Source of the DNA: Anaerofilum sp. An201 | GTDB lineage: Bacteria; Bacillota; Clostridia; Oscillospirales; Ruminococcaceae | NCBI RefSeq assembly: GCF_002160015.1 | Contig: NZ_NFJT01000018.1 | Coordinates: forward strand, 1 to 64,000 | DNA: 64,000 bases | Direction: 5' to 3' | Shown: piece by piece, positions 36,024-40,068 of the stretch | Numbering within the stretch: the first letter of the stretch is position 1 | How the letters are laid out: every line of letters starts with the position of its first letter | Translations under genes and position numbers: made by a program | Notes under the pieces: generated by a model | Databases searched by the model: none | What the model was told of the DNA's origin: nothing | Seen by the model: only the letters and a program-made list of their open reading frames with translations

Positions 36024-36887
36024 ATGGCACATAATTTCAGAACCAAGGAGGAGACCGCGCGCCACAACCGCCGTCTGCGCCGCCAGGCGCTGGGCGTGGT
36101 GCTGAGCGTTCTGGTGGTGGTGGGCCTGGTGACGGTGGTCGCCGCCAGCAGCCGCGCCGTTGCCGCCCTGTTCGACAACACCAAACAGAAAGAGGAGTTC
36201 GCCAGCCGGCTGAACACCCTCGTCATGCTGGACCCGCTGCCCTTCGGCACGCTGGACCAGGCCAATCCCGACACCCTGAAAACCGCCGCGCTGTGGGCGG
36301 GCATCACCGCCGCGCGCGAGAACGGCACGCTGGACCTCTACGAGCGCGACCCCGACGACATGAGCCTGTACATGCCGGAGGTGGACGTGGACGCGGCTGC
36401 CGCCGCCCTCTACGGCCCCGACTACAAGCTGCAGCACGGCACCTTCAGCAACGACGGCCTGGAGTTCGTCTACATGCCGGACAAGAAGGCCTATAAGATC
36501 CCGGTCACCAGCCAGAGCGGCCTGTACTACCCCGAGGTGGAGAGCATGAAGACCCAGCACGGGGTGCTGCGCGTGACGGTGGGGTATCTGTCGGCCTACA
36601 GCCTGGACGAGTTCGGCCTGCCCACCAGCAGCACGCCCGAGAAATATATGGACTATCTGTTCCAGAAAAAGAACGGTGTGTGGTATCTTTCTGCCCTCGA
36701 GGAGAGCCAGATGAAGGTGGCCTCCAGCAGCAGCGCGCCCTCGTCGCTGCCCACCGACCCCATCCCCGACTCCGCTTTGCAGGAGCAGCTGCAGCAGCAG
36801 ACCTCCAGCGCGGTGCAGAGCCAGCCGTCCAGCGCCGCCCAGAGCGACAGCCAGCCGGCCGAGGACAACGCCAGCAGCGCCGAATAA
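36024..36887 (+). CDS. Membrane-anchored hypothetical protein
   Basis: 287 aa. A basic N-terminus (RHNRRLRRQA), one membrane helix (~22-45) and an extracytoplasmic domain with alternating strands (LEFVYMPDKKAYKIPVTS, TQHGVLRVTVGYLSAYSLDE). The C-terminal ~55 residues are low-complexity Ser/Gln/Ala/Pro. Similar small anchored proteins are common in this group without assigned function. AGGAGAG precedes the ATG, 31 bp after proA, so it may be cotranscribed. Confidence 0.7.
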   Translation: MAHNFRTKEETARHNRRLRRQALGVVLSVLVVVGLVTVVAASSRAVAALFDNTKQKEEFASRLNTLVMLDPLPFGTLDQANPDTLKTAALWAGITAARENGTLDLYERDPDDMSLYMPEVDVDAAAAALYGPDYKLQHGTFSNDGLEFVYMPDKKAYKIPVTSQSGLYYPEVESMKTQHGVLRVTVGYLSAYSLDEFGLPTSSTPEKYMDYLFQKKNGVWYLSALEESQMKVASSSSAPSSLPTDPIPDSALQEQLQQQTSSAVQSQPSSAAQSDSQPAEDNASSAE

Positions 36888-37051: not shown

Positions 37052-39262
37052 TCAATATTGGCGGCTCATCGGCATCACCAGCTGCAGCACCGTCCAGGCG
37101 CACTGGTACAGCACCACGGCCGGCAGCACCAGCGTGCTCAGCCCGCCGGTGACCGTCATCAGCACGGCCAGCACGCAGCTCAGCAGCACCGCCGCTTTCT
37201 GCACCGCCATCGCCAGCTTTTCGCCCGCCGCCGCGCCTTCCGCTGCCCGCAGGCCGCCGATGAAGCTGGCAAACGGCCCCTGATGGGTCATCAGGCCCTC
37301 GCTCTCGGGGCGGAAGTTCAGCTCGGCCCCGATCGCCTTGCGCTCGGCGGTATCCAGCACCTTCACGCATCCCTCGGGCAGCTCGTACACCTCGGCGATC
37401 ATCCGGCTGGTGATCAGGCAGTCCTCCGCTTTCACCAGCAGCGAGATGCCCCGCTGGTGCAGCGTGTGGATCACCTGCTGCACCTCCTCGTCCGGCTGGT
37501 GGGTCACGCCGAACACGCCGAACAGCTTGCCGTTCACCGCCAGATACAGCAGCTGGCGGCGTCCGTTCTGGGTGTAGTGCGCCTCCCACTCGGCGTCGGG
37601 CGTGTTCACCTCGTGCCCCAGCATCATCTCGCGGCTGCCCACCAGCACCAGGTCTCCGTTGACGGTGGCCGAATAGCCGCGCCCGTCCTCCCGGGTGAAC
37701 CGCTCCACCGGGTAGAGGATGTCGGTGCGCTGCTCGATGATCTGCAAAAATACGTCGCGCATGATGTCGCCGCCCGCCACCACCACCGAGGCGGCGTAGA
37801 GGATGGCCAGGTCGATGCGCTCCTTTTCAAAGGTCTTGATGCCGCGCAGCTGCACGCTGCCGGACGGGAACAGGTCCCGCGCCTCCACCAGCACCATATT
37901 CGCCTTTCCCAGCTCCTCGATCGAGCTCCAGCCCGGCACCACCGCGCCCATCCGGGCGGCGTGCTTCTGCATCAGCAGGGCGGGCACCGCCGCCAGCAGG
38001 GTGCTGGCAAAGGGGGCGCCCAGGCAGAGCACCGCCGTGCAGACGGTGATGGAGGTCATCGCGCCGGCCTTGAGGTAGAGGGCGGTATAGCCGGTGCACG
38101 CCGCCGCCGCCGCCAGCAGCACCCAGCACAGGCGGCGGGAGGTGTATTCGGAGGCGTGGCAGGAAAAGCTCTGGCGCAGGAAATCCCGCACGAGCCCGGT
38201 GGGACGGCTGACCACCAGCACCGGGTCCGGCTCGTCCATCCCCTTGGCCACCGCCGCCACCCGCTGGCGGTCCTTGACCAGACAGGCCGCCCAGTGGGTC
38301 ATGCGGGTGCTGGCCATCTGGAAGTTGCGGCTGACCACCTGGCTCTGGATCAGCTTGCCCAGCGCGTTGGTGCACAGGCCCAGCGCCGCCACGCCCGACA
38401 GGAGCGTCGAGGCGGTGGGGTCGTAGCTGCCGGACATCGCCAGCAGCGCGCCGCTCTGGACCAGCGCGGCCAGCGCGGCGAGGGTGGGCATGGTGTCGGC
38501 GCTGGGCTCCTTGAACAGACCCACGATGCCGCTCTTCACCGTCCCCGGCGACAGCAGCACACACAGCGCCAGCAGCCCCAGGTTCACGCCCAGAAAGAGC
38601 ATCGGCTCGCCGGCCGGGTCGACATACGGCAGGGTGATCTGCCCGCCGGCAGCCAGGCCCAGCCCCAGCAGTGCCAGCCCGAACAGCCCGCACAGCACCG
38701 CCCGCAGGCCAAACCGCGCGCTCATGCCGGACAGGCGCTCCTGCACGGCCTCGGCGTCGCGGGGGTCGTCAAACTCCTCCAGCTCGCCGTCGTCCTCTTC
38801 CCCTTCGCCGTCCTCCCCGTCCTCCGGTTCCGGCGCGGCGTAGGGGGGCTTGTCGTCGTTTTCCAGCGGGCCGTCCAGCATCCCGCAGGCTTTTTTCAGC
38901 CAGGGGTGTTCCGGCTTTTTCTCTCCGGCCTCCCCGGCGGTGCGGGTGGGTTCCTCCGGCAGCTCCTCCGGTTCGGCCGGCGGGAACTGCCCGGTGACCA
39001 CTTCGCGGATCAACTCCTCGGTGGGGATGGTGGGCTGCAGATCCGGCACCGGGGCGTGGGCCGGGGCCTCTTTTTCCGGCGCGGGCGCCTCCGACGCCTT
39101 CTTCACCAGCTCGGCGGCCTCCTTTTCCCGGCGTTGCTGCTCCAGCTTCAGCAGGATGCGGTCGATCTCCACCGTGTCCTGCCGCTGCACGCTGGGCTCC
39201 ACCCGGCGCAGGTTCTCCAGGATGCGGTCGACATCCGTGCTGGACACAGGCTGCTTGTTCAT
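37052..39262 (-). CDS. P1B-type ATPase-like membrane protein lacking catalytic motifs
   Basis: 736 aa. A disordered, Glu/Pro-rich cytosolic N-terminus (~1-180) precedes membrane helices at ~185-310 and 378-432. The layout after that follows P1B ATPases: CLGAPFASTLLA where CPCALG is expected, HAARMGAVVPGWSSIEELG where a linker to the P-domain is expected, then ARDLFPSGSV (~461-470) in place of DKTGTLT. The nucleotide domain keeps GRGYSATVNGDLVLVGSR (~527-544). TGDN is KAED (611-614), and no GDGxND exists. Inferred: a non-pumping homologue, maybe regulatory or scaffold. ATGA overlap with rlmB upstream. Intact frame, so not simple decay. Confidence 0.7.
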   Translation of the reverse strand: MNKQPVSSTDVDRILENLRRVEPSVQRQDTVEIDRILLKLEQQRREKEAAELVKKASEAPAPEKEAPAHAPVPDLQPTIPTEELIREVVTGQFPPAEPEELPEEPTRTAGEAGEKKPEHPWLKKACGMLDGPLENDDKPPYAAPEPEDGEDGEGEEDDGELEEFDDPRDAEAVQERLSGMSARFGLRAVLCGLFGLALLGLGLAAGGQITLPYVDPAGEPMLFLGVNLGLLALCVLLSPGTVKSGIVGLFKEPSADTMPTLAALAALVQSGALLAMSGSYDPTASTLLSGVAALGLCTNALGKLIQSQVVSRNFQMASTRMTHWAACLVKDRQRVAAVAKGMDEPDPVLVVSRPTGLVRDFLRQSFSCHASEYTSRRLCWVLLAAAAACTGYTALYLKAGAMTSITVCTAVLCLGAPFASTLLAAVPALLMQKHAARMGAVVPGWSSIEELGKANMVLVEARDLFPSGSVQLRGIKTFEKERIDLAILYAASVVVAGGDIMRDVFLQIIEQRTDILYPVERFTREDGRGYSATVNGDLVLVGSREMMLGHEVNTPDAEWEAHYTQNGRRQLLYLAVNGKLFGVFGVTHQPDEEVQQVIHTLHQRGISLLVKAEDCLITSRMIAEVYELPEGCVKVLDTAERKAIGAELNFRPESEGLMTHQGPFASFIGGLRAAEGAAAGEKLAMAVQKAAVLLSCVLAVLMTVTGGLSTLVLPAVVLYQCAWTVLQLVMPMSRQY

Positions 39263-40068
39263 ACCGCTCCCTCCCCGGCGCCGCGCTGGCGCATGATCTC
39301 ATACAGAATGATGCCGGCCGCCACCGACACGTTGAAGCTGTCCACGCCGGTGCCGCGCGCCGCCATCGGCAGCGAGATCACACCGTCGCACAGCTTCTTC
39401 ACCAGCGGCGACACGCCGCTCCCCTCGCTGCCCATCACCAGCGCGATGGGGCCGGTGAGGTTGTTGCGGCAGAGCGGGGCGCCGTCCATGTCGGCGCAGT
39501 AGACAAAGACGTTCTCCTCCTTCAGCCGGCGGATGGTCTCGCCGATGTTGGCCACCCGGGCCACCGGCAGCCGCGCGGCCGCCCCGGCCGAGGACTTCAT
39601 CACGGTGGGGGTCACCGGCGCGCCGCCCCGCTTGGGGATGACCACGCCGTGCGCGCCGCACAGCAGCGCCGTGCGCATGATCGCGCCCAGGTTGTGCGGG
39701 TCCTCGATGCCGTCGGCCAGCACCAGGAAGGGCGGCTCGCCCTTTTCCCGCGCCAGCTCCAGCAGGGCCGCCAGGTCGGTGTAGGTGATGCTGCTGGCCC
39801 AGGCGGCCACGCCCTGGTGGCTGTCGGTGCCGCACATGCCGCGCAGCTTGGCCGCGTGCACCTGCTTGGCCACCGCGCCGGCCTGCTTGGCCAGCGCGCC
39901 GTAGTAGGCCGCCACCTGCGGCGGCAGCGTGTCGGCCAGAAATACCGTGTCCACCCCCGCGCCGCTCTTCAGCAGCTCGGCCACCGGGTTTTTGCCGTAC
40001 ACCAGCTGGGTGTCCTGTTCGGGGCGGGCGTTTTCGCGGGCGGGACGTCTGTTCGTACGCTGTTCCAT
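39259..40068 (-). CDS. rlmB: SpoU-family rRNA 2'-O-methyltransferase (RlmB-type)
   Basis: 269 aa. N-terminal substrate-binding domain with VYGKNPVAELLKSG, then the SPOUT methylase: motif 1 EDPHNLGAIMRTALL, motif 2 ALVMGSEGSGVSPLV, motif 3 SLPMAARGTGVDSFNVSVAA. It methylates 23S rRNA G2251 in RlmB; related TrmH proteins act on tRNA, so the exact target is inferred. The stop overlaps the start of the P-ATPase-like gene (39259-39262). Confidence 0.88.
   Translation of the reverse strand: MEQRTNRRPARENARPEQDTQLVYGKNPVAELLKSGAGVDTVFLADTLPPQVAAYYGALAKQAGAVAKQVHAAKLRGMCGTDSHQGVAAWASSITYTDLAALLELAREKGEPPFLVLADGIEDPHNLGAIMRTALLCGAHGVVIPKRGGAPVTPTVMKSSAGAAARLPVARVANIGETIRRLKEENVFVYCADMDGAPLCRNNLTGPIALVMGSEGSGVSPLVKKLCDGVISLPMAARGTGVDSFNVSVAAGIILYEIMRQRGAGEGAV

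Follow-up and report, generated by a model that had tools for sequence, protein, structure and literature searches.

A degenerate homologue of P1B-type ATPases kept behind rlmB across one bacterial order

P1B-type ATPases are built on a helix plan composed of MA, MB with a short second helix, and M1 to M6. The pumps LpCopA (3rfu/4bbj), ZntA (4umv), and ATP7B (7si7) exhibit this eight-helix architecture, including the short helix after MB, and so does the protein described here, referred to as X, which also resembles them in holding P and N domains, the GxG and GN motifs, and the proline of M4. Unlike these pumps, X lacks DKTGT, GDGxND, the histidine of the HP motif, and the cysteines of CPC, and its A region is reduced.

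Another protein with which X can be compared is PcrP (PA2803), a member of the HAD superfamily. According to the available part of its report, this HAD-type protein has a non-catalytic function (PMC12632274), and it is likened to X by description only. The eukaryotic protein ERMA (TMEM94) has been characterized, in the accessible portion of the publication, as a P-type-like Mg2+ transporter of the ER with 10 transmembrane helices and A, P, and N domains, which keeps the Asp in a DKQGIL sequence and whose reported transport depends on Asp427 (PMC13322241). As far as that portion describes it, ERMA shares with X the P-type fold and a changed DKTGT; GDGVND is replaced in ERMA and the loop is lost in X, and TGES is absent in ERMA. 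In contrast to ERMA, X carries Glu460 instead of the Asp, DK is found at the DKTGT position in 0/138 X homologues, there are eight helices rather than 10, and the A region is reduced. A review of P-type ATPases indicates that undescribed diversity remains in prokaryotes, and the part of it that is available describes no family like X (PMC10654040). Among the matches listed in a literature search whose coverage leaves out most subscription journals and preprints, no paper on the X family was found.

The data presented below have been interpreted as follows: X would be a retired P1B pump kept as a membrane-anchored receptor or scaffold, an explanation to which we give about an even chance. The competing explanations are introduced together with the evidence that bears on them.

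The gene and its predicted fold

X is encoded in the window, that is, the whole 64,000-nucleotide stretch of DNA that was analysed, and the positions of its parts are collected in Table 1. Its ORF starts with ATG and contains no internal stops. The upstream gene is rlmB, which overlaps X by 4 nt (ATGA), the ATG of X lying over the rlmB stop codon; an intact frame coupled to rlmB is also what had been described when the sequence was first read. A 940-aa antisense frame over the X region is taken as an artefact of the G+C content. Convergent with X, a gene at 36024-36887 of the plus strand codes for a protein of 287 aa that seems to have a membrane helix at its N-terminus and that has no NCBIfam match.

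Table 1. Position in the window of X, its domains and motifs, and the adjacent rlmB gene (residues of X in brackets)
Feature	Position	Strand	Basis or remark
X, 736-aa degenerate P1B-type ATPase homologue	37052..39262	minus	whole ORF
rlmB, 23S rRNA G2251 2'-O-methyltransferase	39259..40068	minus	TIGR00186, 205.8 bits, above cut-off 160.15
Acidic N-terminal tail (1-165), inferred disordered	38768..39262	minus	44 D+E, 20 K+R, and 34 hydrophobic of 165 residues
Short helix motif copy 1, VDRILENL (11-18)	39209..39232	minus	aligned with VDxILxE of homologues
Possible second motif copy, IDRILLKL (33-40)	39143..39166	minus	sequence
MA, MB, M1, M2 (177-317)	38312..38734	minus	AF2 helices 21-59, 74-90, 93-104, 111-129, 143-171, model numbering
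Reduced actuator region between M2 and M3 (318-369), E344 a possible TGE remnant	38156..38311	minus	model, alignment
M3 and M4 (370-437), GAPF replacing CPC, Pro417 retained	37952..38155	minus	alignment, AF2 model
EARDLFPSG (460-468) at DKTGT position	37859..37885	minus	alignment; LFP conserved as family motif
N-domain (470-588), most conserved part of X	37499..37855	minus	conservation by part
GRG (527-529), GxG motif, second Gly invariant	37676..37684	minus	138/138
GSR (542-544), family G-N/S-R motif	37631..37639	minus	Gly 138/138, Arg 127/138
Second half of P-domain (589-663), GDGxND loop deleted	37274..37498	minus	alignment, 138/138
KAED (611-614) replacing TGD(N), D614 conserved	37421..37432	minus	alignment
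M5 and M6 (664-732)	37067..37273	minus	AF2 helices 518-559, 567-586, model numbering

Against NCBIfam, X matches TIGR01525 with an E value of 5.4e-13 and 48.7 bits, far under the curated cut-off of 346.25 and in this respect unlike functional P1B pumps; CopA, general P-type, and ZntA models rank after it, the CopA model PRK10671 with an E value of 1.5e-10, which is also far under its curated cut-off. The comparison with Pfam yielded a single sub-threshold HAD match, while a phmmer search of the PDB retrieved LpCopA (3rfu) with an E value of 9e-7. These scores point to a kinship with P1B pumps that is far beyond chance. When eight further members of the family were compared with NCBIfam, seven matched P1B models below the cut-off and one (L087) matched none, and against Pfam the eight gave nothing except one sub-threshold E1-E2_ATPase match.

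An AlphaFold2 model of residues 147-736, obtained with a 130-row alignment, has a mean pLDDT of 94.8 and a pTM of 0.90. Eight membrane helices can be read from its secondary structure, and their order agrees with the P1B plan. In a Foldseek search the top matches of the model were 4bbj and 3rfu (E 3.1e-17 and 2e-16, TM-score up to 0.58, rmsd 10-11), and VIA-align superposed 477 residues on LpCopA 3rfu with a Z of 24.1 and an rmsd of 7.5. Such large rmsd values would be expected if the domains were placed differently in X and in the pumps. A fold unrelated to P-type ATPases had been considered and is rejected by the Foldseek and VIA-align matches to LpCopA; the structure prediction proposed together with the sequence-only reading returned a P-type ATPase fold. 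The features named in that reading are all present in X. By descent and by fold, on both sequence and predicted structure, X is a member of the P1B superfamily.

Contrary to what had been claimed, the scaffold is not complete, because the A-domain is cut in the AlphaFold2 model to a segment of about 52 residues between M2 and M3. Aligned TGE occurs in 0/138 homologues, and X itself reads MDE there (E344); an unaligned TGE string is found close to the A region in a few homologues such as L010. Since a Glu is present at the E344 position in 63/130 homologues (rows of alignment A2, X included), and GxGEPxP, a sequence similar to the LTGE(S/P)xPV loop of real pumps, in 26/130 of the same rows, this Glu is possibly a remnant of the TGE loop. 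Residues 342-360 of X (38183-38239, minus strand) form a conserved EP.P...SRPT stretch within the reduced A region.

Catalytic and metal-binding motifs

The motif counts refer to 138 X homologues aligned with five true pumps, a set from which rows identical over their final 200 residues, two pieces of the broken locus L047, and the five true pumps have been removed; near-duplicates remain in it, as do three fragments some 300 aa long. At the DKTGT position of X, the catalytic Asp is replaced by Glu460, K by A, T by R, G by D, and the last T by L. Asp stands at this first position in 39 of the 138 homologues and Gly in 28, and Glu, Ser, and Thr each account for 17, so that 99/138 lack the Asp; the 39 that bear it show mostly DAxxLFP-like motifs, never DK. 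Close homologues with an intact DKTGT, which had been suggested as the sign of a recent loss, were sought, and no homologue found carries the motif, which indicates that the loss is not recent.

The GDGxND columns are gapped in every one of the 138 rows, and the string is not found in X. Similarly, the N-domain of 0/138 homologues contains the HP histidine, the residue by which P1B pumps recognise ATP. Both CPC cysteines are missing in 136/138, while the proline of M4 is retained in 120/138. With regard to TGD, the aligned triplet remains in 1/138 homologues, but the Asp corresponding to D614 is conserved in 137/138, the remaining one having a gap. The family holds motifs of its own, namely LFP, ERID, G-F/Y-xxW, GNR, and YLAVSG, and the Arg that follows the Gly of the GN motif is specific to it.

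According to these data, the sequence-only reading was right in placing ARDLFPSG at the DKTGT position and in noting the absence of GDGxND. Its replacement of TGDN by KAED holds for the position but not for the Asp, which is kept as D614. In the same way, its statement that every catalytic motif has been replaced applies to DKTGT, GDGxND, the HP His, and the CPC cysteines, but not to the TGD Asp, the GxG Gly, the GN Gly, or the M4 proline. Given the Asp in 39/138 homologues, D614, the one aligned TGD, and the Glu remnant, some residual chemistry may persist in X.

Retention across the order and gene order

The distribution of X was established with profile A2, built from X and 129 of the 134 homologue rows, at a threshold of E <= 1e-45. 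Under these settings X is found in 287/297 sampled genomes of the order, which we take to be Oscillospirales in GTDB naming, representing 143/146 genera and 22/22 families, with one match per genome except for G403, which has two. This result supersedes two previous counts: 195/198, made with a loose threshold and including some true-pump matches (G167, G190), and 234/297, made with a narrower profile. In the class sample, full-length matches appear in 14/15 genomes inside the order and in 0/278 outside it, where the best A2 match reaches 127 bits. The weaker outside-order matches that were listed cover only the M4-P-N part of A2 (about 230-513), and most of them lie in frames 700-880 aa long, while the true CopA of the genome that carries X scores 109 bits in the same search; for these reasons, the outside-order matches are read as true pumps. 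At the level of the phylum, 5/299 sampled genomes pass E <= 1e-45, and each of them belongs to the order. A single-protein query with X gave no match in the genome contigs, whereas an alignment query retrieved at least 79 loci. The named relatives belong to Anaerofilum, Gemmiger, Fournierella, Faecalibacterium, Ruthenibacterium, Pygmaiobacter, Subdoligranulum, Ruminococcus, and Oscillospiraceae.

X is retained after rlmB in six genomes of 0.7-1.2 Mb (G057, G074, G137, G149, G089, and G005). In G108 and G170 (L237 and L238), of one genus, rlmB is present with no X behind it, which implies that X is not strictly essential; a third member of this genus, G005, keeps both genes. G194, G167, and G190 have no clear X match, but in them rlmB lies within 900 bp of the contig end on the relevant side. 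In G219, the frame at L047, between rlmB and an EF-G-like gene, is interrupted by one in-frame TGA (1948-1950), apparently at a conserved Gly position, and is otherwise open; the TGA may be an error of sequencing, a nonsense mutation, or a codon that is recoded.

A simple ORF caller recovered X in 35/41 neighbourhoods, and stop-to-stop frames recovered it in 40/40 loci. In these 40 loci, belonging to 14 families, rlmB is always upstream of X on the same strand, and the gap between the two genes is under 150 nt in 36; in L071, L080, L081, and L095 it is larger, from 182 to 2670 nt by the starts chosen. The interval of about 2.7 kb at L081 (5330-8000) contains an 894-aa frame. An EF-G-like match, obtained with the NF009381 protein of L104 as the query, starts less than 700 bp downstream of X on the same strand in 15/40 loci, and most of the other neighbours vary among loci. 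In G160, a true P1B pump with DKTGT and GDGIND (L103:6638-8824, plus strand) adjoins X on the opposite strand.

The constancy of rlmB in all 40 loci while most other neighbours change, together with the EF-G-like gene downstream in 15 of them, has raised the possibility that X is a membrane factor of translation or ribosome maturation working physically with RlmB or the EF-G-like GTPase, which would be a specific form of the receptor or scaffold explanation. However, operon order may persist without physical contact, rlmB occurs without X in G108 and G170, the EF-G-like gene is not close in 25/40 loci, and the family scans of nine X members reported no ribosome-binding domain. We assign a fairly small chance to this proposal.

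It could also be postulated that X serves the cell's true P-type ATPases as a regulatory subunit, either forming dimers with them or competing against them. TIGR01525 matches occur in 60/60 sampled genomes of the family, above the cut-off in 58/60, and the pump adjoining X in G160 would fit this arrangement. Nevertheless, among the ORFs of the 41 neighbourhoods that pump is the only true one scoring with profile A1, X is present in G057 with just one TIGR01525 match (E 2.5e-60), and the constant neighbour of X is rlmB rather than a pump. The chances of this explanation are slim.

Constraint in X and its possible functions

The core of X shows dN/dS values of 0.02-0.25 in the 25 closest pairs listed (NG86), and X is under strong purifying selection. 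A recent pseudogene is rejected by these ratios, by the order-wide retention, and by the lack of DKTGT in every homologue found. The proposal that the changes in X reflect selection rather than decay is thus strongly supported by retention throughout the order, the dN/dS values, the six small genomes, and the presence of rlmB in 40/40 loci. The motif losses, the long antisense frames originated by the high G+C content, and the in-frame TGA of L047 are what a decaying pump or an annotation artefact might show; against the purifying selection, the order-wide retention, and the confident fold, the probability of such an origin is close to nil.

The conservation of each part was calculated as the mean frequency of the top residue, within approximate domain limits, for 30 X rows (taken from A2 by list and even steps, and unmatched to the pumps) and for 30 true pumps of the same family: the true pumps gave 0.85 for M4, 0.80 for P1, 0.75 for P2, 0.72 for A, and 0.57 for N, and X gave 0.62 for M4, 0.69 for P1, 0.58 for P2, 0.62 for the mini-A, and 0.70 for N. 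The N-domain is therefore the lowest of the parts tested in true pumps and the highest in X. With all 130 rows it stands at 0.56, narrowly above P1 (0.53), the other parts ranging from 0.34 to 0.47, and it holds 29 of the 48 columns that reach at least 0.80. Conservation in every membrane helix of X falls below that of the N-domain, and W723 is the only polar, charged, Trp, or Tyr position of these helices to reach 0.80. Constraint in X has shifted away from the sites of catalysis and metal binding and towards the N-domain, although the high conservation of this domain may reflect structure rather than binding.

X might still transport something by an unconventional cycle, like ERMA/TMEM94, which, in the accessible portion of its report, transports despite the loss of GDGVND and TGES (PMC13322241). 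The M4 proline (120/138), D614 (137/138), the Asp at the phosphorylation position (39/138), and the possible TGE Glu (63/130) would be in line with this idea. On the other hand, ERMA is reported there to need Asp427, and X has Glu at that place while 99/138 homologues have no Asp, which makes an ERMA-like cycle less likely; moreover, the A region is reduced, the metal cysteines are lost, and every membrane helix is less conserved than the N-domain. Transport by X is consequently rated as unlikely, though not negligible. With its A region cut down and with the phosphorylation motif, GDGxND, and the metal cysteines all gone, X probably does not pump. Of the selected, non-pumping role that had been put forward for X, selection is thus well supported, and the non-pumping part is inferential.

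The N-terminal tail, whose acidic character was already recognised in the sequence-only reading, has a median length of 303 residues and is net negative in 34/38 cases, counted in 38 of the 40 loci with start codons chosen by hand and with the tail of L078 mis-cut. A motif at the start of the homologues is recovered in 17/35 by a strict pattern, which does not fit the copy of X itself, and in 28/38 by a looser one; two copies are also seen in several homologues, and in the full-length alignment of 27 rows (A3) the Ile of the motif is at least 90% conserved. The strict protein pattern occurs in 0/699 other ORFs, a count limited to hits in ORFs of at least 100 aa, and the strict DNA pattern gave one match in three of four genomes, each of them X by position, and none in the fourth, with two matches in the reversed control, which leaves this comparison little power. 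It is possible that the motif is common to other proteins. In the model of the homologue L083 (mean pLDDT 79.2), residues 7-22 form a helix, with block pLDDT values of 64 and 83, and residues 25-182, almost all under a pLDDT of 50, precede the core. The tail may accordingly be modelled as a recognition helix on a disordered segment. One homologue of family f9 (L094:9479-11122, minus strand, 548 aa) has no N-terminal tail, and the other f9 frames listed measure 541-555 aa.

Returning to X as a retired pump kept as a receptor or scaffold, it is hypothesized that a CopA/ZntA-like P1B pump lost its activity no later than the common ancestor of one order and would then have been retained, as a rule in single copy, in the new role. 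A partner protein or a nucleotide-like ligand would bind to the cytosolic P-N module, chiefly to the N-domain with its invariant glycines and Arg544, and to Asp614 of the P-domain; a second partner would be recruited by the short helix at the N-terminal end of the tail, and the membrane part would anchor the assembly and may report its state. Among the ideas previously suggested for X, metal sensing is the weakest, with the CPC cysteines absent in 136/138 homologues and with W723 alone reaching 0.80 among the polar, charged, Trp, or Tyr positions of the membrane helices. The high conservation of the N-domain makes the binding of a nucleotide or a partner more plausible, but the HP His that recognises ATP in the pumps occurs in 0/138 homologues. 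Since rlmB always and an EF-G-like gene often flank X, the partner would most likely be found among translation or ribosome-maturation factors, a class which is a guess made from gene order alone. The whole chain, in which X would read a different ligand or partner through the old ATP-binding domain, the VDxILxE helix would recruit a second one, and RlmB and the EF-G-like GTPase would link the membrane to translation or to the maturation of ribosomes, is quite doubtful.

With 287/297 sampled genomes inside the order against 0/278 class genomes outside it, X looks like a lineage-defining core gene, and its relatives include gut commensals such as Faecalibacterium, Gemmiger, and Ruminococcus. 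Given this retention, and its place beside rlmB in all the loci examined, X probably does an important non-pumping job at the membrane, and its family constitutes a large natural experiment in the loss of the catalytic cycle and the reuse of a P-type ATPase.
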